From NCBI GenBank assembly GCA_017404985.1, contig JAFRBK010000049.1, positions 1 through 64,000 of the forward strand: 64,000 nt of DNA, read 5' to 3'. This document shows positions 3,756 to 61,600 of this stretch, one piece after another. Below the pieces are notes generated by a model. It was given only the letters and a program-made list of their open reading frames with translations, did not search any database and was not told the origin of the DNA. This stretch comes from Clostridia bacterium. Lineage in GTDB: Bacteria > Bacillota > Clostridia > Christensenellales > Aristaeellaceae. A program made the position numbers and the translations under genes. Every line of letters starts with the position of its first letter. Position 1 is the first letter of the stretch.

Positions 3756-3768
3756 ATTTGTCGGAATC

Positions 3769-5060: not shown

Positions 5061-5066
5061 GCCTGA

Positions 5067-5100
5067 ATCATATCATTATTAACCTACTATGTCAATAGGT
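5067..5100 (-). promoter_or_regulatory. cysK promoter with an overlapping operator-like dyad
   Basis: On the minus strand, TTGACA (5095-5090) and TATGAT (5072-5067) are 17 bp apart, a near-consensus sigma-A promoter. An inverted repeat, ACCTA-N9-TAGGT (5082-5100), covers the -35 box and the spacer. Rrf2-family regulators of sulfur metabolism (CymR type) bind AT-rich sites with similar ACCTA/TAGGT half-sites. Repression of cysK by such a protein is therefore a reasonable inference, but no such regulator is in the window. Confidence 0.65.
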
Positions 5101-5162
5101 ATTTTGCATTTCGATTGTTTTTCAGTTGTTTTTCCCCCGCGCCGCTGTCCGCCGGTTTTGCC

Positions 5163-5561: not shown

Positions 5562-5797
5562 CACAGTTCCTCCCTCTTTGGCATCATATTCCAGGATGGT
5601 TGCTGTCTCTCTTCCATGAAATCATCTGAAAATGCACCGATTGCCTGTCTTGTCGGCATCCAGGGGTCATCTGCAGGATAAGCAATATATACATTGCCCA
5701 CTTTAGCGATATAAAACTCCTTGTTTGTTGTACGCATTTCCTGTGGAATTCGTAGCGCCTGGCTGTTTCCATTTTGGAAAACTTTCGTTGTAGTCAT
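5561..5797 (-). CDS. vapB: VapB-type antitoxin, AbrB/SpoVT-like
   Basis: The protein of about 78 aa begins with MTTTKVFQNGNSQALRIPQE, the characteristic AbrB/MazE-like DNA-binding hairpin of VapB antitoxins. The C-terminal tail (DDFMEERQQPSWNMMPKREEL) would bind and block the toxin. The ATG at 5797 has a GAGGAG ribosome binding site about 9 bases upstream, which is why I prefer it to upstream in-frame codons. It overlaps vapC and presumably represses its own promoter through the repeated sites just upstream. Confidence 0.88.
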   Translation of the reverse strand: MTTTKVFQNGNSQALRIPQEMRTTNKEFYIAKVGNVYIAYPADDPWMPTRQAIGAFSDDFMEERQQPSWNMMPKREEL

Positions 5798-5813
5798 TTC
5801 AAGCATCTCCTCA

Positions 5814-5848
5814 TTGTACACACATATTGTACACACGCATGATATCAT
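5814..5848 (-). promoter_or_regulatory. Repeated operator-like sites upstream of vapB
   Basis: TTGTACACA occurs twice in direct orientation, at 5814-5822 and 5827-5835, a 13-bp period. A palindrome ATGATATCAT lies just beyond (5839-5848). On the minus strand TACAAT within the repeats could serve as a -10 box. This layout is typical of an autoregulated toxin-antitoxin promoter; binding by VapB is inferred. Confidence 0.5.
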
Positions 5849-6020
5849 ATTTTGTCATGAATGGCAAGGGATCTTTCCCGCAGCCGTTTTTTTCATTCCC
5901 CATCCCTTTCTCCATGAGGGCATCGGAGGGGTTCACCTCCGGGAAGGGGAGAGGGAGAAGCGGATTCTGGTTCCTGTATAGCCTGCAGTGTTTCCGGCTA
6001 TTGATGTCCATTGATGAATC

Positions 6021-6194
6021 ATGCTGAATTATATGAAAGATGAGGCGGCCTATACCCTGGGCGAGGCGAAGCTGCGGGGCACAGGCCGCACCGTTCCGCC
6101 GCTCTCTTCCCTGAAGCAGCCCTTGCGGGACGGCGATACGGAGCGCCCGGATGACCCGGTCTATGCCGGCTGTTGGTTCATGAACGCGAATTCC
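6021..6194 (+). pseudogene. Fragment of a phage DUF2815-type ssDNA-binding protein gene
   Basis: The reading frame contains SLKQPLRDGDTERPDDPVYA followed by GCWFMNANS. This closely resembles the conserved centre of phage DUF2815 proteins (single-stranded DNA-binding-like), which read approximately LPLRDGDxERPDDxAYxGCYFINANS. The N-terminal part of the family is absent, a stop lies immediately upstream, and the similarity ends after NANS, so only about 58 codons remain. I read it as a decayed prophage or phage-gene remnant beside the VapBC pair. The identification is from memory of the family consensus. Confidence 0.6.
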
Positions 6195-6261
6195 GCCTCG
6201 GCGGCCGCACCAGCGCGGATGGGTACGAATGCCTGGATTTTTACAGAAACCGATTTCTGTT

Positions 6262-6291
6262 TTGACTCAGCCTTTTGCTTCATGGTATAAT
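6262..6291 (+). promoter_or_regulatory. Promoter upstream of the M42 aminopeptidase gene
   Basis: TTGACT (6262-6267) and a perfect TATAAT (6286-6291) are separated by 18 bp, about 110 bases upstream of the aminopeptidase start. It probably drives both that gene and the diguanylate cyclase that follows. Confidence 0.65.
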
Positions 6292-6400
6292 CAATTGATT
6301 CAGCCAAATCGAAAAAGCGCTGGGCCCTGCCGATGGATGCGGCCCTGCGGAAGTCCGGCATCCGGGCTGAAAACATCCCGCCCGGGAAAGGAATAGGATA

Positions 6401-7444
6401 ATGAACGATTTGACACGATACACTGATTTTCTGGTCACTGAAACAGAAACCCTCCTGAATATTGACTCTCCGACTGGGTACACGGAAAACGCGGCCGCCT
6501 GGGTCCTGAAAGAATTCGCCGGGCTCGGCTTCGATGCGAAGCTGACCAATAAAGGCGGCGTCCTTGTTTCCCTCGGCGGATCCGACCCGGAAAACGGGCT
6601 GCTGCTGGAAGCCCATGTGGATACCCTGGGCGGCATGGTTGCGGAAATCAAGGATACCGGGCGGCTTCGCCTGACGAACCTCGGCGGCATGAACCCCAAC
6701 AACGCGGAAACGGAAAACGTCCGCATCGTGACGAAGTTCAGCGGCATCTATGAAGGGACCTTCCAGCTCTGTAACGCTTCGCTTCACGTCAACGGCGAAT
6801 ATGACGAGACGAAGCGTTCCTGGGATACCTGTGAGGTGGTTCTGGATGAAGATGTCAAATCCAGGGAGGATACGGCAAAGCTCGGGATCGCTGTCGGCGA
6901 TTTCGTCTGCTTTGAGCCCAATGTCCGGATCACGAAATCCGGGTATATCAAGTCCCGTTTCCTGGATGACAAGCTGAGCGTCGGCATTCTGCTGGGGCTG
7001 GCGAAATACATCCGGGAGGAACAGGTCGTGCCGAAGCGCGCGCTGTATGCGCACATCACGGTATTCGAAGAAGTCGGCCACGGCGGTTCCGGCAGCGTCC
7101 CCGCGGGCTGCACGGAAGCCCTCTCCGTGGATATGGGCTGTGTCGGCCAGGGGCTTCAGTGTACCGAAAAGCAGGTCTCCATCTGCGCCAAGGACAGCGG
7201 CGGGCCGTACAGTTACTCTGTTGTCAGAAGGCTGATTGAAGCCGCCAAAAGGAGCGGCGCGGATTATGCAGTCGACCTTTACCCGCATTACGGAAGCGAT
7301 GTGGAAGCAACCCTCCGGGCCGGAAACGACCTCCGCCACGGCCTGATCGGCGCCGGCGTATACGCTTCCCACGGATATGAACGCAGCCACCGGAGCGGAG
7401 CGGAAAACACGCTCAGGCTTCTGATCGCCTACGCGCTTGAATAA
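6401..7444 (+). CDS. M42 family metallopeptidase (glutamyl/deblocking aminopeptidase-like)
   Basis: This cytosolic di-metal aminopeptidase of 347 aa removes N-terminal residues from short peptides. The family's metal and catalytic motifs are present in order: LEAHVDTLGG (His72, Asp74), SRFLDDKLSVG, FEEVGHGGSG, SVDMG and the final YASHGYERSH. Members are often annotated as FrvX or as endoglucanase CelM, but the metal-binding motifs are those of a peptidase. An ATAGGATA stretch precedes the ATG. The cyclase gene follows after 21 bp and is probably cotranscribed, although no functional link between them is evident. Confidence 0.9.
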   Translation: MNDLTRYTDFLVTETETLLNIDSPTGYTENAAAWVLKEFAGLGFDAKLTNKGGVLVSLGGSDPENGLLLEAHVDTLGGMVAEIKDTGRLRLTNLGGMNPNNAETENVRIVTKFSGIYEGTFQLCNASLHVNGEYDETKRSWDTCEVVLDEDVKSREDTAKLGIAVGDFVCFEPNVRITKSGYIKSRFLDDKLSVGILLGLAKYIREEQVVPKRALYAHITVFEEVGHGGSGSVPAGCTEALSVDMGCVGQGLQCTEKQVSICAKDSGGPYSYSVVRRLIEAAKRSGADYAVDLYPHYGSDVEATLRAGNDLRHGLIGAGVYASHGYERSHRSGAENTLRLLIAYALE

Positions 7445-7465
7445 CCCGCAGATAAGGAGACCGAA

Positions 7466-9598
7466 ATGAAAACCGAAACGAAAAAAGACAACCAGCCGTT
7501 ATCCTTTGCCCGGATCGCCCTGGCCCTGGCCAATGACTACAACCGCCTGTTTGTCATCAACTCCGATGACGACAGCTATATTGAATACACCACGAACGGA
7601 GCGGACAAGGAACTTGTAATAGCCTCCACAGGGGATGATTTCTATCAGGCTGTGCCCAAAAACGCAAAGGAACAGGTGTGGCCAGAGGACCAGGAATACT
7701 TCCTGAACGCGTTTCAGAAGGATACGGTCATGAGGGCTTTGGAAAACGGCCGGTCGTTTTCGCTGACCTACCGGCTGAACCTGGATGGAAACCCCCATTA
7801 TTTTTCCCTGAAGGCCATTCAGGCCAGCGACCACAGCATCATCATTGGCGTGCAGGATGTGGACGACCGGAAACGCAGGGAGCTGGAGAGTGAAGCGGAG
7901 AACCGGACCTATACGGAAATTGTCAAATCCCTCGCCAGCCAGTACGAGGCGATCTACCACGTGGACCTGACCACTGGCCATTATATGGAATACAGTTCCA
8001 GCAACCGTTTCGGTTTCTTCCGGCCCGGCGAGGACTTTTTCGAAGTGTCCGCCGCCAACATCCGGATGGTGATCCATCCGGACGACCGGGACCGTGTCCT
8101 TCACGAAATTGAAAAGGATGTCCTGCTGGCCGGCATCCGGGAATCCGGCTCCTATACGGTCACCTACCGCCAGATTTTTGACGGCGAGCCGCAATATATG
8201 GAGCTGCTAGCCTTCCGCCAGGAAGACAATGAGGACCGCCTGGTGATCGGCGTGCGCAATATTGACGCCCGGAAAAAGCAGGAGGAAGCCAGTGAAACCT
8301 ACCAGCAGATTGCCGGAGCGCTGGCCAGCCGCTATGAAGTCATCTACTATATCAACAGCGATACGAATGAGTATACCCTGTACAGCGCCAGCGAGCAGTA
8401 TGCAAAGCTCGGCACCACCAAACAGGGAGATGACTTTTTTGCCGACGCCGCGTCGGATATCCGGGTTTACATCCATCCTGACGATGTTTCCGCCACGCTG
8501 AAAAAGCTCAGCAAAGAGCGGCTGATGTTGGACCTGAAGCAGAACGGCATGGTGTCCATCACCTACCGTCAGATGCTGGACGGCAGGCACCGGTATATGA
8601 ATATGCAGGTCGTCCAGCCGAAAAACGATATTCACCATATCGTCATCGGCGTCAGCAACACAGACGCGCAGGTCCGCCGGGAACAGACCATGCGCGCGCA
8701 GAACCGAACCTTCAATGATATTTCCATGGCGCTGGCCCAGCAGTACGAAGTCATCTACCATGTCAATATCCGGACGAACGAATATTCGGAATACAGTGCC
8801 AGCGAAAAGTATTCCAGGCTGAAAGTCGGCACACGGGGCAAAGACTTCTTTACGGAAACCCAGGAGAATATGAAGCGGGACATCTATCCGGAGGATCTGC
8901 CGAAAATGGCGCTGGCCATGCAGAAGGAAAACCTGCTGAATAATCTCTTCTCCTATGGAAAAACCTTCCTGAACTACCGCCTGATGATCGACGGACGGCC
9001 CCAGTATGTCGCCCTGTATGCGATCCTCCCGAAGGAAGATTCCGACCATATCATCATTTCCATTGCGAATATCGATGCTTCCAAACGCATGGAGGAAGCC
9101 TACCATGACGCGCTGGACCAAGCAAACAGGGATTCCCTGACCGGCGTGAAGAACAAGCGGGCCTACGCCCAGGTGGAGACCGAAATCGACGAAAAAATCA
9201 GCAGGCGGGAGCAGGGGCCCTTTGCGATGGTCGTCTGCGACCTGAACGGGCTGAAGCAGATCAATGATACGCTGGGCCACAAGCAGGGGGACGCCTTTAT
9301 CAGCAGCACCTGTGCCATGATTTGTGACGTGTTCTGCCACAGCCCCGTGTTCCGGATCGGCGGCGATGAATTCGCCGTGATCCTCCAGGACCGGGATTAC
9401 AACTGCCGCGGCGAACTGGCCGGGCAGCTGGCTGAAACTCTGGATGCCCATCAGCACAGCGGCATGAGGCCGCTGGCGTTCGGAATGTCCGAATACAATC
9501 CCGCTTCGGATATGCGTGTACAGGACGTTTTTGAGAGAGCCGACCGGCTGATGTATGAAGACAAGAAAAAATGCAAGGGCGGTTCAGGCATCCGGTAA
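7466..9598 (+). CDS. Diguanylate cyclase with four tandem PAS-like repeats
   Basis: The protein (710 aa) has no clear membrane helix. It opens with four related units of about 130 aa (roughly residues 10-135, 145-270, 275-400 and 405-535). Each contains variants of ALAxxYxxIYxVN, a YSASxxY-like motif, GxDFF, an IHPDD-like motif, TYRxxxDGxxxY and IIGVxxxD. They resemble PAS/PAC sensor folds. The C-terminal GGDEF domain has the active motif RIGGDEF (GGDEF at residues 632-636) and NDTLGHKQGD, so it should make c-di-GMP. The RxxD inhibitory site expected just before GGDEF is not seen. An AAGGAG ribosome binding site precedes the ATG and a strong terminator follows. Confidence 0.92.
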   Translation: MKTETKKDNQPLSFARIALALANDYNRLFVINSDDDSYIEYTTNGADKELVIASTGDDFYQAVPKNAKEQVWPEDQEYFLNAFQKDTVMRALENGRSFSLTYRLNLDGNPHYFSLKAIQASDHSIIIGVQDVDDRKRRELESEAENRTYTEIVKSLASQYEAIYHVDLTTGHYMEYSSSNRFGFFRPGEDFFEVSAANIRMVIHPDDRDRVLHEIEKDVLLAGIRESGSYTVTYRQIFDGEPQYMELLAFRQEDNEDRLVIGVRNIDARKKQEEASETYQQIAGALASRYEVIYYINSDTNEYTLYSASEQYAKLGTTKQGDDFFADAASDIRVYIHPDDVSATLKKLSKERLMLDLKQNGMVSITYRQMLDGRHRYMNMQVVQPKNDIHHIVIGVSNTDAQVRREQTMRAQNRTFNDISMALAQQYEVIYHVNIRTNEYSEYSASEKYSRLKVGTRGKDFFTETQENMKRDIYPEDLPKMALAMQKENLLNNLFSYGKTFLNYRLMIDGRPQYVALYAILPKEDSDHIIISIANIDASKRMEEAYHDALDQANRDSLTGVKNKRAYAQVETEIDEKISRREQGPFAMVVCDLNGLKQINDTLGHKQGDAFISSTCAMICDVFCHSPVFRIGGDEFAVILQDRDYNCRGELAGQLAETLDAHQHSGMRPLAFGMSEYNPASDMRVQDVFERADRLMYEDKKKCKGGSGIR

Positions 9599-9635
9599 GC
9601 AGCCCGACGCAAACCCTTATTCCCTTTCGTTCTTT

Positions 9636-9666
9636 CCAGGGCCCCGCATAGCCGGGGCCTTTTTCC
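9636..9666 (+). terminator. Rho-independent terminator after the diguanylate cyclase gene
   Basis: The hairpin GGCCCCG-CATAG-CCGGGGCC is followed by TTTTT. It ends the aminopeptidase/cyclase transcript just before the convergent ECF-type gene. Confidence 0.8.
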
Positions 9667-9667
9667 G

Positions 9668-10198
9668 TCAGTTCAGGGACAGGCCCGCCCGGTCCATCGC
9701 CGTCACCAGAATCGGAATCAGAATGAGCTGCAGGATGATCCCGGGGATCGCGTTTGTCACGGCTCCGGCCAGAAACAGCGCCCAGGTAAAGCTGCTTCCG
9801 GACAAGCCCGCCAGAATCACGCGGGCCGCTCCCCAGACAATCCTTCCCGCGATCATCGAAATAATCAGCACGATCCAGGCATTTCCGCCTTTTCTCGGAA
9901 GCCGCTGGTACAGCCATCCGGCCATGCCGCCGTAAACCGCCAGTTCAAAGGCCATGGCCACGCCCGTCGGAAACATTGCCGGCATCCCGAAGAGGACCGA
10001 CCGCAGCAGCGGCGCAGCAAACCCCACGGCGAGCCCCCACGGCCAGCCGCACATAAAGCCGCACAGCAGCGCCGGAATATGCATCGGGCACAGCATGGCG
10101 CCGATTTCCGGAATCTGCCCGGTGACAAACGGCAGCACCATGGCGATCGCCAGATACAGCGCGGCATAGGTCAGCCGGCGAACCTGGATGGAAGTCAT
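9668..10198 (-). CDS. ECF-type transporter S component (substrate unknown)
   Basis: This hydrophobic protein of 176 aa has about six membrane segments, the size and pattern of ECF (energy-coupling factor) substrate-capture components. Features seen are an N-terminal RRLTYAALYLAIAMVLPF helix, a Met/Pro-rich segment MLCPMHIPALLCGFMCG, and a FPTGVAMAFELAVYGGMAG stretch. The ATG at 10198 overlaps the upstream stop as ATGA. It is the last gene of a five-gene coupled operon. No ECF ATPase or T component is in the window, so it would share a module encoded elsewhere. Nothing in the sequence fixes its substrate; a cobalt/corrinoid or other vitamin would be typical. Confidence 0.75.
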   Translation of the reverse strand: MTSIQVRRLTYAALYLAIAMVLPFVTGQIPEIGAMLCPMHIPALLCGFMCGWPWGLAVGFAAPLLRSVLFGMPAMFPTGVAMAFELAVYGGMAGWLYQRLPRKGGNAWIVLIISMIAGRIVWGAARVILAGLSGSSFTWALFLAGAVTNAIPGIILQLILIPILVTAMDRAGLSLN

Positions 10199-10617
10199 TC
10201 TTTGTTCTCCTTCTGGGCCAGCTGGCGGATATGGTTTACCGCATCCTCCAGAATCGCGGCGGAGCCCTGGGACACCCCGGCGATATACGTCCTGCACAGA
10301 TTCATGGGAATCAGTACGCGGTAGGCGTTGCTGGAAGCAACCGCACAGGCCATGGCAGGCGTAATCTCTCCCAGCATCGCGTCCGCTGTGGCGATGCCGA
10401 AGGGGCCCACAATGACCTCCGCGGTCCTGCATGCCACAATGACGGCATTCTCCCCTGTCGCGAGCTGGTCAGCGCAGTTGCTGTTCAGCATGTTGGATGT
10501 CGCCATGCTGTTGGTTCCGACCGCTGTGATGCAGGCTTCCGGGCAGGCCTTCCGGATGCTTTCCACCAGTTTCCGGCCCAGCCGGCCTCCCTGTCCGTCA
10601 ATCACCAGAATATTCAT
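10195..10617 (-). CDS. DUF3842 family protein
   Basis: This 140-aa protein matches the DUF3842 pattern as I remember it: N-terminal VIDGQGGRLGRKLVESI, then AVGTNSMATSNML, ATGENA, VGPFGIATADAMLGEITPAM and LIPMNLC. The N-terminal glycine-rich strand-turn-helix suggests a small nucleotide-binding-like fold, but the family has no established function. It is predicted cytosolic. Its start shares one base with the preceding lipoprotein stop (TGATG), and its stop overlaps the ECF-type gene's ATG, so its job is probably tied to the same uptake operon. Confidence 0.85.
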   Translation of the reverse strand: MNILVIDGQGGRLGRKLVESIRKACPEACITAVGTNSMATSNMLNSNCADQLATGENAVIVACRTAEVIVGPFGIATADAMLGEITPAMACAVASSNAYRVLIPMNLCRTYIAGVSQGSAAILEDAVNHIRQLAQKENKE

Positions 10618-11636
10618 CAGAATCCTCCCTGTCCGTTGTAATAGTAATGGCCGGTGGCCGCGCTGCCCGCCGCTTCCTCCGTCAGCAGGGCGATCATCCG
10701 GTCCGGGTCGGCATCCGGAAACAGCTCCGGGTTCGCTGTTTCGGCGATCAGCAGCATGGCTGCCAGCTGCAGATGGGGCGCTTCCAGCATTTCCCCGGAA
10801 ATCAGCAGCACTTTTTTGTTTCGGACCGCATCGGTCCCGGCCCAGCCTTCCCGGGCCAGCAGGCCGGCATAAACGCTCCGGGCCGCGCTGTCCGAAGAAA
10901 CCCCGGTGCCCAGCACGTTTCCGCCCACAACCTTGACCACCAGGCCCGGATTCTTCCGCACGATCCATCCGTCGTCCACATGCAGGTTCTCCGCCTGCAG
11001 CCGGGAGGAAACGTCATTGGCTCCCGCGCCGAGGATCAGGCTGTGTTCCGGGGACGATTTATATACGGTCACATGGTCCTCCGCCGTTTCCCAGTAGACG
11101 CTGGTTCTCTGGCATTCATACAGGGAACCCGTCCGGTCCTGCAGCAGCACGGAATAGTATGTCATGGCGGAATCGGCTTCCGGCGCATCCTCTGACGCGC
11201 CTTTCTGCTCCGCCTTTTCCGCGTCCACAGTCTGCACCGCGGTTTCCTCCGCCCCGGCATTCACCCGGCTCACCCGTTCCTCCGCCGCTTCGTTCAGCAC
11301 GGAGACGCCTTCCCCTTCTCCCTCATCATGAAGCTTTCGGCCCGTTCCCGGAACAACCTCAACCGGCGCGCTTTCATCATATTCTTTTCGGGATGCTTCC
11401 GGGTTTTCCTTTGTCAGGCGGCCTGTTTCCTCCCGGTTTTTTGGGTTTTCCGCCTCATCCGCTTCCTCGGTTTCCGCTCCGGATAATCCGCTCCCGAGAG
11501 CTTCCGCGCCCAAGGCCGGCTGATCCGCGGTGCTGCCGGCCGCCTGCTCCGGAACCGTTGTACGCACGCGGCATCCGGAAAGGGCCAGACAGGCTCCCAA
11601 AAGAAGCAGCAGGCATCCTGCCTTTCTGATTTTCAT
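10617..11636 (-). CDS. Lipoprotein with an acidic linker and a TroA-like C-terminal domain
   Basis: The protein (339 aa) starts with a lipoprotein signal peptide ending in a good lipobox, LSGC (Cys near residue 22). Residues of roughly 25-160 are acidic, low-complexity sequence rich in Glu and Ala, probably a flexible spacer. The last 170 residues look like one lobe of a cobalamin/siderophore-type binding protein: DRTGSLYECQRTSVYWE, LILGAGANDVSSRL, DDGWIVRKNPGLVVKVV. That similarity is my judgement and is weak. The ATG at 11636 overlaps the upstream stop as ATGA; another ATG lies two codons earlier. Together with the DUF3842 and ECF-type genes it suggests a nutrient-uptake role. Confidence 0.65.
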   Translation of the reverse strand: MKIRKAGCLLLLLGACLALSGCRVRTTVPEQAAGSTADQPALGAEALGSGLSGAETEEADEAENPKNREETGRLTKENPEASRKEYDESAPVEVVPGTGRKLHDEGEGEGVSVLNEAAEERVSRVNAGAEETAVQTVDAEKAEQKGASEDAPEADSAMTYYSVLLQDRTGSLYECQRTSVYWETAEDHVTVYKSSPEHSLILGAGANDVSSRLQAENLHVDDGWIVRKNPGLVVKVVGGNVLGTGVSSDSAARSVYAGLLAREGWAGTDAVRNKKVLLISGEMLEAPHLQLAAMLLIAETANPELFPDADPDRMIALLTEEAAGSAATGHYYYNGQGGF

Positions 11637-27334: not shown

Positions 27335-27814
27335 ATGGGGGTGACCTGCTTGACGCGCAAAGAAACCTTTCTGATTGTTCAATCCCTGCTTTGCGCGCTG
27401 GTGACGGGGCTGCTGACGGTCTCCGCGCTCTGCCTGTATTTTGACGGCGCGGCAAAGCAGGCCGAAGGCGATCTGTTCTACTATATGTATACCCGGGAAA
27501 GGGTCGGCGCCAGACTGCTGCCCATTCTGCCGCTTTTGTTCTGCTCCTTCGGGATGACGGTTGCGGGCCTGATCCTGGGAATCAGGGATGATCAGGCGGA
27601 CAAGCCCGTGCGGGATGAGAAGCTTCTCCGGAATCAGGGCATGATTCGGGAAAAAGCGGTTCATCAGGTTGCCACCCAAAGTGAGCTGTACCTTCGCGTC
27701 GCGGTGATCGCGCTGGCGGTGTTCCTGATCGTCGCGGGAATTCTGAATGGCGGGCTGGAGGACGTGCTGGCCAAAGGCGCCACCATCTGTACGGAGTGTG
27801 TTGGCCTTGGATAA
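27335..27814 (+). CDS. CD1871A-family CXXC-motif membrane protein
   Basis: The protein (159 aa) has three membrane segments (about residues 11-36, 60-84 and 120-137) and a C-terminal CTECVGLG, the CXXC tail of the CD1871A family. In Clostridia such proteins are found next to NapH/CcoG-like 4Fe-4S proteins and TlpA-like thioredoxins, and that is the context here (both follow directly). The tail probably passes electrons or disulfides at the membrane. The first coding ATG may lie a few codons into the frame; I use 27335. Biochemical function is not established. Confidence 0.75.
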   Translation: MGVTCLTRKETFLIVQSLLCALVTGLLTVSALCLYFDGAAKQAEGDLFYYMYTRERVGARLLPILPLLFCSFGMTVAGLILGIRDDQADKPVRDEKLLRNQGMIREKAVHQVATQSELYLRVAVIALAVFLIVAGILNGGLEDVLAKGATICTECVGLG

Positions 27815-27818
27815 TACG

Positions 27819-29621
27819 ATGAATCAGGAAAAGAAAGCCCCCGAAAAAAAAGCCCCTGAAACCCAAAGGGAAAAGCTGCAGCGCCCGGGAACCCGCCGCC
27901 TGGTCCAGCTGTATGCCGCCCTGCTGTACAATGCCAACCTGAAAGGCTTCATTGACGGCCATATTTACTCTGGCAACCTGAAGTCCGTCTGCGTTCCGGG
28001 CTTCAACTGCTATTCCTGCCCGGGCGCCGTCGCCAGCTGCCCGCTGGGGTCCCTGCAGAACGCCCTGACCGCCGCCGGGCATACCGCGCCCTGGTATGTC
28101 CTGGGGATTCTCACCCTGTTCGGCGTGATGCTGGGCCGGACGATCTGCGGCTGGATCTGCCCCCTGGGCCTGATTCAGGAATTGCTGCATAAGATCCCGA
28201 CCCCGAAGATTCGCAAGAGCCATATCACCCGGAAGCTCTCTTACCTGAAATACGTCTTTCTGGCGGTGTTTGTCATCGCCATCCCGTTGATTTACGGCAT
28301 CGGCAAGGGCATGATCCTGCCGGGCTTCTGCAAGTATATCTGCCCGGCCGGCACCCTGGAAGGCGCGGTAGGCCTTCTGCAGAACCCGGCAAACGCCACC
28401 TCCTTCTATCAGCTGGGCGAGGTGTTCACCCGCAAATGGGTGATCATGCTGGTCATCGGCCTGGCCTGCGTCTTCTGCTACCGCTCCTTCTGCCGGTTCA
28501 TCTGCCCGTTGGGCGCGATCTATGGGTTCTTCAACCGTTTCGCGCTGGCCGGCGTGAAGGTGAACCCGGACCGCTGCAACAGCTGCGGCCTGTGCGTAAT
28601 GAATTGCAAGATGGATATCCGGCACGTGGGAGACCGCGAATGTATCTCCTGCGGCAAGTGCATCGATACCTGCGCCCAGGGAGCGATCTCCCTGAAGTGC
28701 GGAAAGATTACACTGAAAGGGCCGGAGACCGGCAAGAACGCCGATCCGGAACCGGTCATTCAGAAGCGGAAAAAGATCGGGCGGATCGCCTGGGGGATCG
28801 CCATCGCGGTGCTGGTCTTCGCTGTGTGCTGGTTCAACCTCATTGAACCGGCCATAGAAAATGCGAATGAGCCGGCGGCTGCGGCGGTAGCCACGGAACA
28901 GGCGGCCGGCACAGAACAGGCCACCGGCGCGGAACAGTCCGCTGGTACGGATCAGGCTGCCAATACGGATCAGGCAACCGGCACGGATCAGGCCACCGAC
29001 GCGGAACAGTCCGCCGGTACGGATCAGGCAGCCGGCGAGAATCAGGCTGCCAACACGGATCAGGCCACCGGCGAGAATCAGGCTGCCAACACGGATCAGG
29101 CTGCTGACGAAACCGGGTCGTCTGAACCGAAAACCGGCCCGGAAGCGAAAGAATCCGGAACCCCGGCCGCTGCCGCGAATCTTCCGGTGGGCTCGGAAAT
29201 CGGAAACCTGCTGCCGGACTTCTCCACCGATTTGCTGGGCGAAGGAGATTTCAAACTATCGGATCACCGGGGGCAGGTCGTGATCCTGAACTTCTGGGGA
29301 ACCACCTGCGCGCCCTGCATTGCGGAACTCCCGGACTTCGAAAAGCTGAAAGTCGCCTATCCCGACGTGGAAATCCTGGCCATCCATGCCAGGGCCGGCG
29401 CGAAGAAGGCGAAAGCCTTCCTGGAGGACAAGGGCTGGGACCATCTGGACTTTGCCACGGACAGCAAGGAAAAAGGGATCATGAAGCTGCTGAACGTGTC
29501 AGAAGCCCTTCCCTCGACGATTGTGCTGAATCCGCAGGGGGTTGTCACCTACCATGCCCAGGCGCCTTTGAGCTATGAGAAACTGGAAGCGTTGTTTAAG
29601 GCGGCGCTTGCGGACAATTAG
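27819..29621 (+). CDS. NapH/CcoG-like 4Fe-4S membrane protein fused to a TlpA-like thioredoxin domain
   Basis: The N-terminal half (to about residue 340) is a NapH/CcoG-type polyferredoxin with five or so membrane helices. It has Cys-Pro motifs (CYSCPGAVASCP, CGWICPLG, CKYICPAG, CRFICPLG) and a ferredoxin pair (CNSCGLCVMNCKMD, CISCGKCIDTCAQG). A spacer of about 70 residues made of 5-residue repeats follows. The last 130 residues are a TlpA-like thioredoxin with the redox motif TTCAPC. The chain could carry electrons from the cytosolic side of the membrane to an outside disulfide reductase. The start is the ATG at 27819, only 4 bp after the CD1871A gene. Confidence 0.88.
   Translation: MNQEKKAPEKKAPETQREKLQRPGTRRLVQLYAALLYNANLKGFIDGHIYSGNLKSVCVPGFNCYSCPGAVASCPLGSLQNALTAAGHTAPWYVLGILTLFGVMLGRTICGWICPLGLIQELLHKIPTPKIRKSHITRKLSYLKYVFLAVFVIAIPLIYGIGKGMILPGFCKYICPAGTLEGAVGLLQNPANATSFYQLGEVFTRKWVIMLVIGLACVFCYRSFCRFICPLGAIYGFFNRFALAGVKVNPDRCNSCGLCVMNCKMDIRHVGDRECISCGKCIDTCAQGAISLKCGKITLKGPETGKNADPEPVIQKRKKIGRIAWGIAIAVLVFAVCWFNLIEPAIENANEPAAAAVATEQAAGTEQATGAEQSAGTDQAANTDQATGTDQATDAEQSAGTDQAAGENQAANTDQATGENQAANTDQAADETGSSEPKTGPEAKESGTPAAAANLPVGSEIGNLLPDFSTDLLGEGDFKLSDHRGQVVILNFWGTTCAPCIAELPDFEKLKVAYPDVEILAIHARAGAKKAKAFLEDKGWDHLDFATDSKEKGIMKLLNVSEALPSTIVLNPQGVVTYHAQAPLSYEKLEALFKAALADN
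28893..29115 (+). repeat. In-frame 15-bp tandem repeats coding a spacer
   Basis: About fourteen degenerate copies of a 15-bp unit encode five-residue repeats such as TDQAA/TDQAT/AEQSA/GENQA. They join the ferredoxin and thioredoxin parts of the fusion protein. Copies are close enough in DNA sequence for their number to vary by slippage. Confidence 0.85.
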
Positions 29622-30999: not shown

Positions 31000-31644
31000 T
31001 TATCCGAGCAGATTCCCCTTCCACCGGACGCACAGCATGGTCAGGTCGTCAAACTGTTCCGCGCCGCCCATGAACGCGGCAATGCTTTCCGTCACCGTTG
31101 ATAGAATTGCTTTCGGGTCCGCGGTCGCTGATGCGTTCAGCGCCTCCAGCAGCCGCTGTGTGCCGTAACGCTGTGTTTCGTCTTTCGCGTCCGGAACGCC
31201 GTCTGTATAGACGAAGATCACGTCCCCGGGTTTCATCCGGATTTCATAATCGGAATACGTTGCTCTCTTCATGGCCCCGAGCACCAGGCTGTGATGATTG
31301 TGCACCAGTTCAAACCGGTCGCCGTTCCGGAGGATCGGTTCCTCATGGCCGCCGTTGCTCGCCGTCAGGATACCGGTTTCCAGGTCCAGAATGCCCAGCC
31401 AGACCGTAACGAACATCCTGGCCCGGTTATTCACGCACAGCTGCCGGTTGACATCCGACAGGATTTCCGCCGGCGTCCCGCTGGCCTGCGCGCGGCTGTT
31501 GATCCGGTCTTTGGCGGTCATCATGAAGAGCGCGGCGGGAATCCCTTTCCCGGATACGTCCACGATCACCAGCGCCAGGCGCCGGCCGTCATCCATGTCA
31601 AAAAAGTCATAGAAATCGCCGCCGATTTCCTTTGCGGGCGTCAT
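31000..31644 (-). pseudogene. SpoIIE/RsbU-type phosphatase domain (3' part of a frameshifted gene)
   Basis: This frame encodes a PP2C-type SpoIIE/RsbU phosphatase domain: MTPAKEIGGDFYDFFDMDDG, VDVSGKGIPAALFM, NGGHEEPIL, VFVYTDGVPDAKDE and QFDDLTMLCVR. It has the metal-binding Asp residues and could be active. However, its upstream coding continues in the same frame without a start and reads AELDLAAKIQVSALPKADPD, the usual helical lead-in that follows a HAMP domain. That HAMP part sits one frame over in the next entry, so the original gene was one chain. An internal start at the ATG at 31644 is conceivable. Confidence 0.75.
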
Positions 31645-32627
31645 GGAAGCGCTGAGGTCAAAGGCGGGATGGCCGGTGAAATCCGGATCTGCCTTCGGCA
31701 GCGCGGAAACCTGGATTTTTGCAGCCAGGTCCAGTTCTGCCGGGCCCGTTCCCTTTCGGCCGCGTTTCTTGCCAGTTCCTCCGTGTTATGGACGATGCTG
31801 GCCTGCATCTCCCGGATCCCCTGGTACAGATCACCGATTTCGTCCCGGTTCGGAATCTTCAGGTTCATCACGTCGTCCATCGTATAGATAGTATCCCCTG
31901 TCTCACCAGCCTTCTTTTCCGCGAAATCCAGCGTTCCCTGCCGCAGCAGGCGAAGGGGCTTCACGGCAATCCGGCGGACCACCAGCATGCCGATCACGAT
32001 CGCGGCCGCGGTCAACAGAACGATCAGCAGAATGCTGTTGGAAAGAAAGCTGCGGCGCTGTTCCATCACATGGTTCATATTGATGTCCGCAAAGGCATAC
32101 GCAATGATTATTTCACGATTCTCCTTTTCCGTGGGCAGGGAAATGAACTCATAGGTAAAGCACAGCCAGCCGGATTCATCCGGCTGCATACCGGATGCTC
32201 CTTCGTCATCGTATCCGGCATCGGGATCTTCCGCGCCGATCCGGATCAGTTCCGGTTCCGGTGTAAAAGCCCGCATCATCCATTCAGGTGCGCATACTGC
32301 CGCCGCCGCAAACAGCATCCCGACGCTGACGGAAAACCGCAGCGCGATGCCTTCCACGGCATTCACCGCCCGCATATCCCCCTTACCGAAATACTGGGCA
32401 CTTAGCATAGTTACGCCGGTTCCCAGTCCGTACAGCACTATAAAAAGGATATTCGCATAATTGGCCGCCAGGGATACCGCGGAAATGTGCTCCTGCCCGA
32501 TATAGTTCAGCATCACCACGTCCGCCGAATTCACCGCGGCGCTCAGGAGATTCTGCAGGATAATCGGTACCGTCAGCTTCGCGATTTTGCTGTATGTCGC
32601 CCGTTCAATCCGTTGCATTCTGATCAT
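31641..32627 (-). pseudogene. Chimeric gene: MATE N-terminus joined to a HAMP sensor, then frameshifted
   Basis: Residues 1 to about 131 are the start of a MATE transporter (KLTVPIILQNLLSAAVNSAD, AVSLAANYANILF, EPELIRIGAE). From about residue 132 (near base 32233) the sequence changes to the extracellular part of a sensor, a membrane helix (SILLIVLLTAAAIVIGMLVV), and a HAMP domain with coiled coil. After AAERERARQ the frame is wrong: the next residues are nonsense, while the correct continuation (AELDLAAKIQ...) is one frame away. So a deletion probably fused two genes and a later small indel near base 31735 broke the product. I expect no function. Confidence 0.75.
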
Positions 32628-32762: not shown

Positions 32763-33641
32763 TCATTCGTCCAGGAACGAGATCTGCTCAGACTTTTCCG
32801 GCAAATGGTTCATATATTCAAAACATTCATCCGGTTTATACATTATCCCGTGATCCCGGCAGAAAGACTGAAACAGGTTCATCAGTTCCTCCCGGTTCAG
32901 GCTGGGTACCTCATAAGCGTTCCTGTACGTCCGGACATACCGTTCCTTGAGCCCCGGAAAATGCCTGTCCAGCGCTGCGTAAAAGTACTCCCGGTCCCCT
33001 TCCCGGAGCGTCAGCCCCATGTCAAAGCAGATAATCCCTTTCACTCCTGTCTGTGCACAGGCCTCCAGGATCGCCGCAATGTTTTCTTTTGTATCGTTGA
33101 TAAACGGCAGAATCGGCGTCAGCCAGACGACCGTCGGGATTCCGCGCTTCCGCATTTCTTCCAGCACTTCCACCCGGCGCTGTGTGTTGCATACATTCGG
33201 CTCAAGAATCCTGCACAGCCGCTCATCCCAGGTTGTCAGCGTAATCTGTACAACACATTTAGCTCTCCGGTTGATCTCCTCCAACAGGTCGATATCCCGC
33301 AGGATCCGGTCGGATTTTGTCTGAACTGCCGCGCCGAATCCATATCTGTATATGATTTCCAGGCATCTCCGCGTCAGGCCCAGTTTCTCTTCGCAGTGCA
33401 TATACGGATCCGACATGGAACCTGTGCCAATCATCGCCTTCTGCCGTTTCGCCCTCAGTGCCTGCTCCAGCAGTTCCGGCGCATTCTGTTTTACTTCAAT
33501 ATCTTCAAATGCATGGGTAAACTGATAGCACCTGCTTCGGCTGTCGCAGTAAATGCACCCGTGGGAACACCCCCGATATATGTTCATCCCGAAGCGGCCT
33601 TTCCCACCGGTCAGGATCCCTTTTGCGTCCACAAAATGCAT
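32763..33641 (-). CDS. Radical SAM protein, SplB-like (spore photoproduct lyase family)
   Basis: The protein (292 aa) contains the radical SAM cluster motif C25-SHG-C29-IY-C32 within NIYRGCSHGCIYCDSRSRCY, followed by the SPL-like MIGTGSMSDPYMHCEEKLGL, AVQTKSDRILRDIDLL, TLTTWDERLCRILEP and WLTPILPFINDT. It belongs to the SplB-like branch, much of which is uncharacterised; I see no SPASM-type Cys-rich C-terminus. It lies 85 bp downstream of the Nif11-type precursor, on the same strand, but a terminator separates them. A role in peptide modification is thus possible but not shown; nucleic-acid repair is the other candidate. Confidence 0.82.
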   Translation of the reverse strand: MHFVDAKGILTGGKGRFGMNIYRGCSHGCIYCDSRSRCYQFTHAFEDIEVKQNAPELLEQALRAKRQKAMIGTGSMSDPYMHCEEKLGLTRRCLEIIYRYGFGAAVQTKSDRILRDIDLLEEINRRAKCVVQITLTTWDERLCRILEPNVCNTQRRVEVLEEMRKRGIPTVVWLTPILPFINDTKENIAAILEACAQTGVKGIICFDMGLTLREGDREYFYAALDRHFPGLKERYVRTYRNAYEVPSLNREELMNLFQSFCRDHGIMYKPDECFEYMNHLPEKSEQISFLDE

Positions 33642-33667: not shown

Positions 33668-33697
33668 AAAAAATCCGGGCTGCAGGGCCCGGATTGA
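33668..33697 (-). terminator. Intrinsic terminator after the Nif11-type precursor gene
   Basis: On the minus strand the hairpin ATCCGGGC-CCTGCA-GCCCGGAT is followed by TTTTT. It sits between the peptide precursor gene and the radical SAM gene. It would end most precursor transcripts, or reduce expression of the downstream gene relative to the precursor, as is often seen in peptide-modification clusters. Confidence 0.85.
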
Positions 33698-33726
33698 TAA
33701 AGCCGAAAACATGCGCCTTATGCACA

Positions 33727-34203
33727 TCAATAATAGTAGCCTCCGCAGGCATAGCTGTATCCGCACTTATTGTATTCATTTTCGCCGCATACTGAGCCCT
33801 GCATCTTATCGCATTTGCTGTTGTAATGGCACTGATAATCCGAATAATGATTGTTGATGATGTCGCATCCGTCGGTCACCCAGCAGTTTTCCTTGTCCTT
33901 GTAGGTATCCTTGCAATCGGGATGGTCGCCGCCGCCGGCTACCTCGCTGAGTTCCTCCTCCGGCAGCTCTTCCAGCCCCTGCGCAGTGGACTGGGCTTTC
34001 GCCTGCAGGATTTGCTCCTGGTCCGCGATAAAGGCCCTCAGATCTTCATCCGACAGATCGTATCCCAGGTTCTTCGCGATTTTCGCGTAGGCCTGGATCC
34101 GTTCGGACGGGGTCTCCGGCTCGGGAATCTCCCGGACCATTTCCTGTACCTTGGGGTCATCCTTCAGTGCTTCCAGAAACGCCTGAACTTTTTCATGTTT
34201 CAT
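33727..34203 (-). CDS. Nif11-type leader peptide precursor with a Cys-rich core (putative RiPP)
   Basis: Residues 1-90 form a Nif11-like helical leader (KVQAFLEALKDDPKVQEMV, AKIAKNLGYDLSDEDLRAFI) ending in a double-glycine-type site, ELPEEELSEVAGGG (Gly at 90-92). The core (about 66 residues) has eight Cys at 97, 107, 113, 125, 131, 139, 147 and 153 and ends in GGYYY. The layout of a leader, a Gly-Gly site and a Cys-rich core marks a ribosomally made, modified peptide precursor. GAGGAGG precedes the ATG by 8 bases and a strong terminator follows. I see no dedicated synthetase or peptidase-exporter next to it; the radical SAM gene downstream is the only candidate nearby. Confidence 0.82.
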   Translation of the reverse strand: MKHEKVQAFLEALKDDPKVQEMVREIPEPETPSERIQAYAKIAKNLGYDLSDEDLRAFIADQEQILQAKAQSTAQGLEELPEEELSEVAGGGDHPDCKDTYKDKENCWVTDGCDIINNHYSDYQCHYNSKCDKMQGSVCGENEYNKCGYSYACGGYYY

Positions 34204-34315
34204 CGCAGATGCCTCCTCTTCGATATCATTGCCACGCTGTTTCCCTTATTCTATCACACTTGCGGTGAAATGGAAACTCCCTGAAGAAAAGCAGTTACAT
34301 ACAAGCGAAGAATGG

Positions 34316-55647: not shown

Positions 55648-58600
55648 TCAGTTGTTTCTTTCAATCCTGTGCTGGATGTTGCACCCATCGAAAGCATGCT
55701 CGTCTACCTGGCATCCCGCAGGGAGGCTGACATAAATCAGGTTTGTGCAGTTCTCAAACGCTTTGGGCCCGATATACGTGCATGTGTCGGGAACGATTAC
55801 GGCCTGGAAAGCTCCGCCTGCAAAGGCTTCCTCTTCGATCCGGGTCAGGCTGTCCGGCAGGGTCAGCGTGTTCAGACCGCTGGGATCAAAGGTTTCACCC
55901 GCGGCAATGATCATATATTTGCTGAACCGGTCACTCTCAAACAGAAGCACGCTGTCCGCAGTCGGTTTGGATACCGCTTCCGCCGTCAGAACACCATTTT
56001 CCGTATGCAGCCGCGCCACATAGGCTTCCCCGCCTGTCGTGTTTGCAACCGCCATCTGAACCTCGCCCGTCAGATTGTACAGGGGCGTACCCGTGCCTTC
56101 CCCGATTCCGTCTGCGTATCCGGTCACTGAGATCTCAAATACCGTTTCTACCTCGTCCGTCGTTCCGCTCAGCAGCCCGTCGATCTTCGCCTGTTCCGCT
56201 TCACTCAGTCCTTCATTGCTTTCGCTGATGTCCATAACGGCATCCATGCCCGCGGCGTTCGCCAGTACTGTGTCACCCGGCAGTATGGACTGCAGCGTCT
56301 CGCCTTGCTTGGCGCTCAGCACGCAGAGCCGTCCATCCTCAACCAGCGTGCACGGTCCCTGAACTTCCGGAACAACCCGCGTTCCGTATAGATAACGGCT
56401 CCAGTTGATACTGTTCATCTGTCCGTTCTGACCCAGCCGGATTATGCTTCCTTTCCCGCGCATGTTCAGGATTGCGCTGCTGACCGTGCTGTTTACCTGT
56501 AACGTGATAGCATCCCCACGTTCTTCCGCCTGGTAAACTTCGATGATGTTCACCGGGCAGTTCACCGTGACAGTGCCGTAGGAAGAGTTGTTGAACAGGT
56601 CGTTGATTCCAGTCCCGTCCGTCCCGCCGTTCAGCGTCAGCTGATGGTTCTGGTTGTCCGGATCCCACCAGTGTACAGAGATGTCCGTATCCGGTCCCCA
56701 AATGATGTCGTCCTCGCTGAAGTTCGGGTTGTACTTCAGGATGTCGATTACAATCCCCTGTCCATCAGATCCTTTGGGCGACAGGGTCAGCGTCGTATCG
56801 TCAAACTCGGTCCCTTCCTGATCCCTGAACATATATTTCAGCCGATAATCCGCCAGGGAATGATGAGCCGCCGGGATATCCGTCCTCCGGAACACACCTT
56901 TCTCGATCAGTTTTCCGTCTCCTTCTGCCATCGTCAGGCCGGTAAACTCGCGCACCTTACCGTCGAGCTCGATATCCGCACCGACGCCCGGAATACTCAG
57001 CGTTCCGGATCCGTATTCCGTACCGCTGGCAATCGTTCCAACCACTTCCAGGTCGCCTATATATGCCTGGCTGGATTCTATATCATGGAAAACCAACGTA
57101 CCGATATTGCCGTGTACCGTCACAGCCGGTTCATTTCCGGTAAACGAATTCATTAGCTCCAACTTACTGATGTTGCCCGTATAGTTCAGGGTACCGTCGC
57201 TCACGCTTGTGCGGAACACCGGCCAGTATGTGTCGGCATGTTCGACATTCACCGTCACCTGTGACGCACTCAGGTCCACCAGCTCCAGGGTATTTCCGCC
57301 GTGGTCGGCATCCAGGTTCAGGATTCCCTCCTCGCAGTTATCCAGAACATATACCCTCCATGGGATATTCCTGCCTGCGTACAGTGCCGCATCCGCTTCC
57401 GTCGGAATTTCATAAAGCCAGACTGTCAGATGATGATAGCTGATTTCCTCCGCCTGTCTCATGGTGAGCAAGTAAGGATCGTCATTCATGTATGAATACC
57501 AACCCAGGGCCGCCCCTTCTGGTTGCATATAGTCAATGCTTCCTACACCGGGATACTCCTCTTCATAGATCTTCGGCAGGAATATCCATTCGGCGTCTGT
57601 CCGCCCGGCTGTGCCAAGAGTCCAGCTCTCAGTGTTCCTGTAGTAGTGGCAGATCACGTTCGATCCGGCAAATGCGTTTCCATCTGTCAGGGGCATCGTC
57701 GTGCCAAGGAAATCGACTCTTGTGGTTCCACCCAGGTTCGCGAAGGCGTTCGCTCCAATCCCGGTAATCCGTTCGCCGATCACAATGCGGATGTTTTCTT
57801 TTCCGGCAACCGCTTCGCTCCAAGGCGCGTTTTCACCCGTCGAGGTTGAATAGGAAGGAATGGCTCCCCTTCCTTTGATGTACAGCGTCCATTCTCCCTT
57901 GACATATTCATTGGTGTTCTGACCAAATTCATAGCTGATGGATTCCTCTTCCGTGCTGACCAGCACAAATTTGCTGAAACGGCTGCTCCGGAATTCGATC
58001 GCTTCGCCGTCGGTGGGCTCCGTCAGTGATTCGGCAGCCATTGCACCGCTCGCATCTTCGTGCAGCCGAACAACATAGCATGCCCCGCCTGTTTCGTTGC
58101 TGACCGTAAACGGCACGCTGGTATTGAGTTCAGTGACAGCCGCACCCTGAGACGCGTTCCCGTTTCCGTCCAGCGTATAAGTATTGATCGATGCGTCGAA
58201 CACCGCCGCCACCGTGCCGCCGTTCGCTGCCAGATAACTATCCAAGGCTGTGCTTTCTGCCTCGTTCAGCGCCTGGATGCTGGATTCGCTGACTTCCGCG
58301 GAGACCATCACGCCGGCACCAAGGCCTGCAGCATCGGCAATCACGTTCTCTGCCGGCAACATCGCCTGCAGCGTTTCGCCATCCCGCCAGCTCATGGCAT
58401 TCAGGCTGCCATTGGCATACAGCGTGCCCTCGGCTGAAACCGTTCCGAAGTTCCGGTTGGCCCGGCTCCTCCGCTGCCAATATCCTTCCCTGACCTTGCC
58501 TCCTGAACCAAGAATAACCGATCCGCTGTTCAGGTCGGACATATTCAGGTAGTCCACCTCGCTGTTGATCGTCAGGATAACCCCTTCAGTGAATTCTCTT

Positions 58601-61600
58601 CCATTATCAATGGTCAAGGTGTTGACGGGGCAATTGACGACTGCCTGTCCATGCATGAAATAAATGGAACTGACACCTTTCAGCTTTCCACCTTCTTCTG
58701 CTCCGTTCAGCACAACCGGCCCGACCGCGGAGGATGCCTGAATCGTGATCTGCGTATCCTCACCATAAACAAATTCATCCGTGGCGATATTCAGGTTGTC
58801 GTACCTCATGTAATCGCCACCGATAATCTCCCTGTATTCGTCCAGGGGCTCCAGCCCGAGACTAATCATCCGGCTTCCGTTATGGTCCGAAATAAAGTAG
58901 GTCAGGCCATACATGTCCAGTGAAACCTGGAACCGGGTGGACTCCACCTGCAGGACACCGTCCTCGATCACTTTCAGCGGTTCTTCTGCTTCCAGATATT
59001 CAAACGTGGACTGGGCCAAGTTTCCGAATTCCTTCTTCCCGACGCCGGGAATGGTCAGGCTTCCCTTCCCCTGAACCACGCCGTGGCCAATCGATCCTTT
59101 CAATGTCATGTCCCCCTTATAGGGAGAGTCCGCCGTTGCGTCGTTGAAGCTCAGGGAACCGACATATCCGTTCACCGTGATGGAATCGTTGGCCGCCTCG
59201 GCGCTGTCGAGCGTCAGATTCTGGATATTACCGGTATAGGTTACGACGCCGGAACGACACTTCAGAGCATTCAACGTCTCCGGATTGGTCACTGTTACCG
59301 CCGCAGCATGGCTGTCAATCGTCATCTCAAACAGATTATTTCTTTCCGGGAGGGCGATTGTCAGTTCACCTGCCACTCCGTCATATATGCCGATTCTCTG
59401 CATTTTTTCCCATCCGGCATAGAACGCCTGATCCGCCGCAGTCGGAATGGCATAGAAATCAATCACCTTGTATTTTCCGAGGGCAATTTCCGCCGCCTGT
59501 TCCACGCTCATCGGATACCGGTCACGTCCGTAGGTTTCATTGTTGAATAGCTTGTAAGACCAGCCGTATTCTGCAGTATAGTCAAAGTAAGCGGTCTGCC
59601 CGTCGAAGGTTCCTTCGTGTACAGGCAGGTAAACCCACCTCATGCTCTGGGCGCCGTAGTTCCCTTCAGTCCAGGTATCGTTGTTTGTGTAGTACCGGCA
59701 TACAATATTACCGCTGCCGCTGAACGCCGTTGGGCTAAACTCCGGCATACGGCTCTGGTTGAAGTCAATCCGGAGGCCATCCTTCGTAAACCCGGCAAAG
59801 GCATTGCTGCAGATGCTGGTGATATCCCCGTTCAGGATGATTTTGTCAACACCGGTTTTGAGGCCGGCCCATTTAGCTGCGTCCTCTTCGGTGATTGGGC
59901 CATAGGCGGTGATATAGAGTACCTGCTTCTGCCCTTCCGGCGTCATATAGACGGAAGATTCACAGCTCACAGAATCCGACGGAGCGCCCAGCACGGAGAA
60001 GGTGCGGGCTCCGCTGTTGTATTCCGTATATCCTGCAAACCGGATGCTGAGGGTATAAGTGTATGTTTTTCCGGCTACCAGAATATCGGTTTCAGCCGCC
60101 GGATTCTTTTCCGGAATCACAAAGCTGCCCGTATATGTGTCCCCATTCTGTTTCCGAATGGTATATACGTTTGCATTGTTCTCATCGAACACAGTCAGCG
60201 TCCAGTCATCCGCTTCGGCGTTATTCATCTGTTGCTGCATGCGCGCCGTCACCACAAGCCCGTCCGCATCCGTCGGAACCCGTTTCTTTGTATAGGTTTC
60301 CGGGCTGCTGACCGTAACATACGGAGTTGCCGGAGGATCGAGCCAGAAAACTGTTTCATTGCTGTTTCCAACATAACCGTCTGCCGTACATTCCACCGCA
60401 AGATAGAACCGGCCAACTGAAACGGGCAAGTCCGCTGTCGGAATCTCGATCAGCATACTGTCCTGCTCCCCGAACGCTTCTGCGGACACTGTCCTTGTAT
60501 AATAATCAGTTCCTTCCGGGTTCGCCTGGCTGTATACGCGCAGTGCATATGACGCAGCGTTCTCAACTTTTCCGAGCGTCAGCCTGGCCTTTTCACCCTG
60601 GTAATACCAATCCCTCTCCAGGCTGATTTCCGGCACATCCAACACCTTATCCGGATCCTCTCCTTCGCCGACGATCACGATGCGCTTTTCAAATACATAT
60701 TTGCTGTATCCTTTTACCGCCATGGTGAACTGAAGCGTATACTGTTTCCCGGCTTGCAGCGGGCTATCAGGAATTCCGATAGTATTAACGCCCGTCTTCA
60801 ACACAAGCGTTTCATCCATCGTCGGACGCATAAAGACCGTGTTGTAATTGTTGCCTATCACACGCAGCGACCATCCAACAAGATCCGCGATCTCTATGCT
60901 GTCCGGAATTGTTACGGTCACGGCATATCCGCCCTCTGTGCCAAGTGCGTACCCTGTCGGAGCGGATGCAACCACATCCAGCGTTCTCAGGTCATCCACC
61001 CGGAACTCCATCTGTTTGCTCTGAGCAACCAGTACCGGCTTCGTATCATCCACCGGAACATAGACCGCGAAAGCCCGGAACCAAATATCCCGGCCAGCGC
61101 TTAACATAATCAACTGCCTGGTCAATACAACTGTTCCGTCCGTACCGGGATTCAGACGCACTGTTGGATTATCCGTCTCCAGGCGGTAGGTCTTCGTATA
61201 TCCCGGAAGATCCGGCGCACTGAGCGTCAGCTTAACGATTTCGTAGTTCCTGTACAGGTACCTCGTCACGTTATTATCTCCGCTGTCTTCGTCCTCCAGG
61301 GCGGTTCCATCTTCCCTGGCCGCAGTGAAGGCAAAGGAGTATCCTTCGATCTGTCCAATGGGCTCGGAAGCGCGGTAAGTTACGTTCGCGACATCCATCA
61401 CCGGCTGGTATCCCGGTCCATCCTCGAAAATGAGGAAGTCCTCCCAATCCAGGCGAATTCCGCCGTAATGAACGGTCGTCAAGGCGGTACAGCCTTCAAA
61501 CGCGCCGGGGAATTCATAAATCGTGCCCGGAATTGTGATGCCTGTCATAGAGCTGCATCCGGCAAAGGCTCTGCTGCAGATGGAAGTCACGCCTTCTTCG

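Follow-up and report, generated by a model that had tools for sequence, protein, structure and literature searches.

A Nif11-leader peptide precursor with a cysteine-rich core in an Aristaeellaceae genome and a candidate radical SAM/SPASM maturase on another contig

The stretch of DNA analysed here (the window) comprises 64,000 nucleotides of contig JAFRBK010000049.1 from a Clostridia bacterium of the Aristaeellaceae (GCA_017404985.1; here genome G000, an 85% complete assembly). It contains a gene for a cysteine-rich peptide with a Nif11-type leader, located next to a radical SAM gene, and a preliminary description of the locus took the two for partners. The question raised by this locus is whether the neighbour acts on the peptide, or whether the machinery for its maturation and export lies elsewhere in the genome.

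The precursor gene and its neighbours

The cysteine-rich peptide precursor gene is confirmed as real (Table 1). Its product passes the curated cut-offs for the Nif11-leader RiPP precursors in both PF07862 (Nif11; 32.2 bits, cut-off 23.8, residues 1–55) and TIGR03798 (39.6 bits, cut-off 32.3, residues 1–91), which bears out the leader that had been described from the sequence. The 92-aa leader contains no Cys, is acidic (21 D/E, 10 K/R) and ends in VAGGG. The 66-aa core carries its eight Cys at residues 97, 107, 113, 125, 131, 139, 147 and 153 and closes on a C-terminal GGYYY; processing site, core and terminal motif can all be read in the ORF as first reported. The core itself lies outside every Pfam and NCBIfam match, in keeping with the earlier remark that it fits no known class. 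Within its own genome, the window precursor is the sole match of the Pfam Nif11 model. The product is probably cross-linked by an enzyme.

Table 1. Positions of the precursor gene, its parts and signals, the neighbouring radical SAM gene and the candidate maturase (window coordinates unless a genome and contig are given)
Feature	Position	Strand	Basis
Nif11-leader RiPP precursor, 158 aa	33727..34203	(-)	ORF, family models and relatives' profile
Leader, residues 1–92, up to VAGGG (Nif11 domain residues 1–55)	33928..34203	(-)	Pfam and sequence
Core, residues 93–158, 8 Cys	33730..33927	(-)	Sequence and alignment of 17 precursors
Shine-Dalgarno-like AGGAGG ahead of precursor ATG	34212..34217	(-)	Read from sequence
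Promoter-like TTTCCA-17-TAGAAT, TG before second hexamer	34248..34276	(-)	Consensus match only
Terminator-like 9-bp hairpin (33672–33695), then four T	33668..33695	(-)	Folding compared with shuffles
Adjacent radical SAM gene, probably a bystander	32763..33641	(-)	PF04055, NCBIfam and distribution in relatives
Radical SAM/SPASM enzyme of the same genome, 482 aa	G000:C12:16035-17480		Similarity to G053 and G200 enzymes, and domains

In the precursor region, a consensus scan found four promoter-like sites where 2.0 were expected. A terminator had been described between the precursor and the radical SAM gene. The hairpin and its run of four T are indeed present, and a terminator downstream of the precursor is plausible by eye; however, its folding is hardly distinctive (z = -1.04, with 37 of 200 shuffles folding equally well), and the hairpin is absent from the terminator list of the consensus scan.

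The adjacent radical SAM gene has position in its favour as the modifying enzyme, being next to the precursor on the same strand across a gap of 85 bases. Its protein matches PF04055 with 53.7 bits, and its nearest NCBIfam families are those of Rv2578c/PA0069, at 150.8 and 149.5 bits against cut-offs of 430 and 360; the name "SplB-like" is a label of the preliminary description with no match here behind it. Against a role for this enzyme stands its distribution. It occurs in 31 of 44 other genomes of the same genus. At all 29 relatives' loci inspected (76–88% identity; 28 within the genus and one in another), a subset of the matches that excludes the window's own, the precursor is missing from the flanks of up to 1.5 kb per side. 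Genome G053, which carries the same core class, has only distant relatives of the gene (27–30% identity), and the protein gave no BLAST match at 1e-3 to the SPASM maturases with which it was compared. Because the relatives' loci are without it, the precursor gives the impression of standing alone, and its radical SAM neighbour is not a conserved partner. Modification by the adjacent enzyme is accordingly a reading we hold to be highly improbable, and the gene is probably a bystander. As relatives do not keep the two genes together, the proposed pairing is not upheld, and neither is the idea that the terminator would give more precursor than enzyme, which was built on that pairing. The preliminary description picked the right gene and probably named the wrong partner.

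The gene upstream of the precursor encodes an [FeFe] hydrogenase of the monomeric (B1) type, with 548 bits against a cut-off of 450. No class precursor was found beside 24 orthologous (74–86% identity) and five paralogous (about 40%) hydrogenase loci with flanks of up to 1.5 kb, so a link between hydrogenase and precursor was rejected; nor was a hydrogenase found beside the radical SAM gene at the 29 relatives' loci described above. When a profile was run over all radical SAM and hydrogenase flanks (5275 segments), only the window's own two copies were recovered. Elsewhere in the window, at 31000-32627 (-), a MATE-family stretch (residues 21–131) continues within one ORF into a HAMP match just below its cut-off, followed by a SpoIIE phosphatase in an overlapping ORF; the arrangement resembles a fusion between a shortened transporter and a shortened sensor phosphatase, or else a joining artefact of the assembly. 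At 27747-29621 (+), NapH-like ferredoxin parts (below cut-off) and a TlpA-like thioredoxin domain are joined by a long, repetitive, TDQA-rich linker, and an ORF of 2774 residues occupies 55648-63972 (-).

The core class in related genomes

The core conforms to the pattern C-x(8,9)-C-x3-D-x-C-D-x5-Y-x(2,4)-C. Seventeen precursors hand-picked for this pattern were aligned, from the window's genome (1), G053 (2), G200 (10), G207 (2, one truncated at a contig end) and G004 (2); the alignment omits the two G200 precursors that belong to another class, the pieces on contigs C30 and C11 of the window's own genome and the remaining matches. Across the 17 rows, columns C97, C107, D111, C113, D114, Y120 and C125 are invariant, as is the GG at the end of the leader (17/17), and the spacing deviates in the two G004 rows only (C-x8-C and Y-x2-C). 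The last four of the eight Cys in the window core are not conserved within the class, whose members have between 4 and 10 Cys. In a wider alignment of 11 Nif11 precursors bearing other cores, C125 is the only invariant core column. A profile of the 16 relatives, from which the window precursor was excluded, recovered that precursor at 5.7e-42 over its full length and at 4.1e-13 when restricted to the core, so that the core was inherited, and not the leader alone. With E values up to 10 admitted, the 1106 segments of the six-frame translation of the window contained no second match to this profile.

Among 100 relatives, with the window's genome counted, the Pfam Nif11 model has matches in 13, and a three-row profile (the window precursor and the two G053 rows) has matches in at least 15 of 308 family genomes, again with the window's own; several of the latter matches are short, confined to the leader or furnished with cores of other classes. 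These genome-search counts are lower bounds, since only the best first-look candidates of each genome were scored (12 in the three-row profile search, five in the enzyme search described below). An order-wide profile search over an even sample of 396 genomes that did not include G053 and G200 found a match in at least three, namely G000, G264 and G384, and the cores of G264 and G384 are of another class. Carriage of the window precursor by a phage or plasmid was rejected, as 50,697 phage and 72,556 plasmid records contain no match to it at E ≤ 0.01. The single match in a scan of genome contigs, a 22-residue stretch in an unrelated, longer Desulfarculaceae ORF, was discarded. Among the titles and abstract openings retrieved from open-licence PubMed Central papers, none concerns this core class, which may nonetheless be in print.

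The window's genome contains two further pieces related to the precursor. On contig C30 (L119, about 6630-6836 (+)), a second core near the window's class lies in an open reading frame that has no Met and no leader that can be recognised, and on contig C11 (L120, 9994-10272 (-)), a 92-aa Nif11-like family ORF has a 20-residue core with two Cys. These leader-less or short pieces give a hint of decay. In G004, two class-related precursors are located right behind phage-type primase, helicase and transcription-regulator genes (L121, contig C29, 7746-8878 (+)), which suggests that the pair is carried by a prophage. Genomes G033 and G038 have 14 and 6 Nif11 matches, respectively, scattered over their contigs, and many of these are small ORFs, about 70 aa long, whose Cys-containing cores are very short.

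Radical SAM/SPASM enzymes and their clades

In two other genera, precursors of the core class directly follow the gene for a radical SAM/SPASM protein of about 485 aa. On a single strand of G053, the gene for a 486-aa radical SAM/SPASM enzyme is followed in turn by two precursors of the class, a piece weakly resembling HlyD, an exporter gene and a further ABC transporter gene; the exporter shares 59% identity over 724 residues with the C39 exporter of G026, which is itself above the NHLM cut-off. In G200, an enzyme with 71% identity to that of G053 precedes ten tandem precursors, eight of the window's class and two of another, so the specificity of the enzyme is not absolute.

The window's genome encodes a close counterpart on contig C12, which shares 70% and 72% identity with the G053 and G200 enzymes and has Radical_SAM and SPASM domains above cut-off. 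A 20-kb scan around this gene found no Nif11-like precursor. The window precursor is about 34 kb inside a contig of 76.8 kb, and the C12 enzyme about 16 kb inside one of 107 kb. As both lie deep inside their contigs, their separation is more than a contig break, and were the contigs to abut, a minimum of about 50 kb would still lie between the two genes. Matches to the enzyme at 1e-60 or better were found in at least 44 of 308 family genomes, and matches with 65% identity or more in at least three (G000, G053 and G200), which represent three genera. All three carry the core class, itself found in five genomes, a co-occurrence with a hypergeometric probability of 2e-6, or 1.3e-4 without the window's genome, at an identity limit picked after the list was seen. 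The other two genomes with the core class are G004, where no close enzyme was found at E ≤ 1e-10, and G207, whose best enzyme match has merely 28% identity. The outer G207 precursor reaches a contig end.

Among solved structures, the best match of the C12 enzyme is SkfB (2e-13), and another of the best is 5v1q, labelled "Radical SAM", which we take to be SuiB. None of the NCBIfam matches listed for the enzyme places it within a named family by cut-off; for TIGR04103 (nif11-class radical SAM maturase 3), it scores 78.7 bits against a cut-off of 725. Two long ORFs beside Nif11 genes, L032:10303-12009 (+) and L037:2277-3749 (+), were rejected as unknown proteins, since each is the antisense of a radical SAM/SPASM gene.

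For a tree of 28 radical SAM/SPASM enzymes, labels were assigned by regular expressions applied to the ORFs within 4.5 kb, which left 8 of the 28 rows unlabelled, including the C12 enzyme as well as L036 and L037, both of which do adjoin a precursor. The C12 enzyme groups at 100/98 with those of G053 and G200, the pair that goes with class A, the core class of the window precursor. Enzymes labelled C only (GCAATV..CWGTDGGC cores) form one branch (100/100), as do those labelled E (C..DY.C; 100/100), and labels B (DGHEMGC) and D (Gly-rich, Cys-x-Cys) require two changes each. All labels together need 11 changes (minimum 7), compared with a mean of 18.3 after shuffling and with 0 of 200 shuffles as low. 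The mixed label BC, carried by three rows of which two come from adjacent genes on a single contig, is unclustered, its 3 changes being reached in 500 of 500 shuffles. Some branches are long, and the deep branching order is therefore unsure. For the most part, the core classes appear to follow the enzyme clades.

Export, proposed maturation and known systems

The window's genome has three C39 matches, on contigs C3, C40 and C29, which score 934, 927 and 878 bits for TIGR03796 (cut-off 853). NHLM-type peptidase-exporters are hence present in the genome, and none is linked with the precursor. Each is accompanied by a second ABC gene, recognised, like the HlyD-like genes of this genome, by similarity only. 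The G026 reference for this second gene itself misses its cut-off, with 684 bits where 709 are required, and those HlyD-like proteins that were scored, including the one from C29, fall far under theirs. A tree of 11 exporters gave no indication of which would serve the window precursor. Just upstream of the C3 exporter is an ORF of 94 aa with a LSMEALRAVSGG stretch (L078, 8666-8950 (+)), which has no NCBIfam match and is possibly another precursor.

The earlier observation that neither a lanthionine synthetase nor a peptidase-exporter lies near the precursor holds, the C39 genes being on other contigs and LanC-like matches being absent from the assembly. Nif11 precursors have been published with LanM-like enzymes and cyclodehydratases (PMC2887384), and a lanthipeptide or azole (TOMM) precursor was considered on that ground. 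Neither LanC-like (PF05147) nor YcaO (PF02624) proteins were matched at E ≤ 0.001 in the 85% complete assembly (0 matches each). Lanthionine and azole chemistry were consequently rejected, and the chance that the peptide belongs to either type is close to nil.

Starting from what is established (the precursor, its core class, the linkage of class and enzyme clade in two other genera, and an enzyme and exporters present in the genome), we consider a scattered radical-SAM RiPP system the probable explanation, with the precursor apart from its machinery and its product matured and exported in trans. The C12 enzyme would bind the Nif11 leader in trans and modify the core around the C-x(8,9)-C-x3-D-x-C-D-x5-Y-x(2,4)-C block. 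The leading candidate for the modification is a radical cross-link from a Cys sulphur to another residue; that this bond is a Cys thioether is a guess by judgement, tentative and on balance doubtful. One of the exporters on C3, C40 and C29, whichever it may be, would then cut the peptide behind the double glycine and carry it out of the cell.

Contig C29 offers competing candidates for the maturation step. The NHLM-type cassette there (L079, about 1595-11132) comprises an exporter pair and two radical SAM genes, and a short Nif11-like ORF with the core NEYNNQCCMGNMCEKHYIPKRP (24.7 bits, cut-off 32.3) lies on the opposite strand. Modification of the window precursor by one of these two enzymes is nevertheless very unlikely in our estimation, given that the cassette has a precursor of its own, that C29a is 27% identical to the C12 enzyme across 453 aa and C29b 30% identical to it across 128 aa, and that relatives of C29b (52–55%) occur at L042 and L123, where the Nif11 cores are of other kinds.

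A more serious objection is that there may be no modification at all, the product being a disulfide-rich peptide that is merely exported and cut, or the gene a decaying leftover of a lost cluster. The want of a maturase adjoining the precursor, the pieces on C30 and C11, the four unconserved Cys and the occurrence of the class in G004 without a close enzyme would all fit this account. The ORF is, however, intact and has a good ribosome site, the conserved block of the core has been retained, and the genome holds an intact enzyme of the matching clade; we consider this account unlikely, though less so than either enzyme-based alternative.

The scattered radical-SAM reading can be set beside several known systems. 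Precursors with a Nif11 leader (N11P/TIGR03798) go with TIGR03794/03796/03797 exporters, according to Haft, Basu, and Mitchell (2010; PMC2887384). As there, the window precursor has a Nif11 leader and a Gly-Gly site, and its genome has TIGR03796 exporters; in contrast to those systems, the maturase linked in relatives is a radical SAM/SPASM protein and not a LanM or cyclodehydratase, the window precursor is unlinked, and its core is without a Pfam or NCBIfam match. The TIGR04064 system embodies the same idea of a Nif11 leader combined with a radical SAM maturase. The C12 enzyme has 65 NCBIfam matches, and the best 25, each with at least 51 bits, do not include that model (cut-off 518.7). The conserved C-x3-D of the core (C107, D111) resembles the CX3D motif linked by the ranthipeptide maturase PapB, of which PapA has six and the window core one that is conserved (PMC9413430). 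Of the ranthipeptide hallmark, a thioether from Cys to a carbon other than the alpha carbon, this motif is the sole hint in the core. The PapB-family model NF047865 (cut-off 340) does not appear among the best 25 matches of the C12 enzyme, the 25th having 51.3 bits. Like the sactipeptide maturases SkfB, AlbA and StsB, the C12 enzyme is a radical SAM/SPASM protein, but its scores of 88, 55 and 54 bits for the StsB, AlbA and SkfB models are far under the respective cut-offs of 625, 850 and 300.

In layout, the closest likeness is to the prochlorosins (ProcA/ProcM), whose Nif11 precursors are singly scattered in the genome and served by one enzyme (PMC10783134). Their chemistry is that of lanthionine, whereas a radical SAM reaction is proposed here, and ProcM has 29 precursors, compared with the one intact class precursor found in the window's genome. 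A wider extrapolation, which we put at somewhat less than an even chance, is that these peptides represent an undescribed, family-wide group of Nif11-leader radical-SAM products, in which several enzyme clades would each have diversified with a core class of their own, the window's class would carry a new cross-link within C-x3-D-x-C-D-x5-Y-x(2,4)-C, and single precursors would lie far from a shared enzyme and exporter in a prochlorosin-like layout.

The system is ordinary in kind, as a Nif11-leader RiPP, and apparently new in its core class, enzyme clade and layout. The locus illustrates that gene neighbourhood alone can point to the wrong enzyme, and a precursor that seemed to lack a partner becomes part of a testable enzyme-substrate pair. 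Core classes that track enzyme clades provide a panel for studying maturase recognition and bond type, and the arrangement suggests a radical SAM counterpart to the scattered-precursor layout of the prochlorosins.
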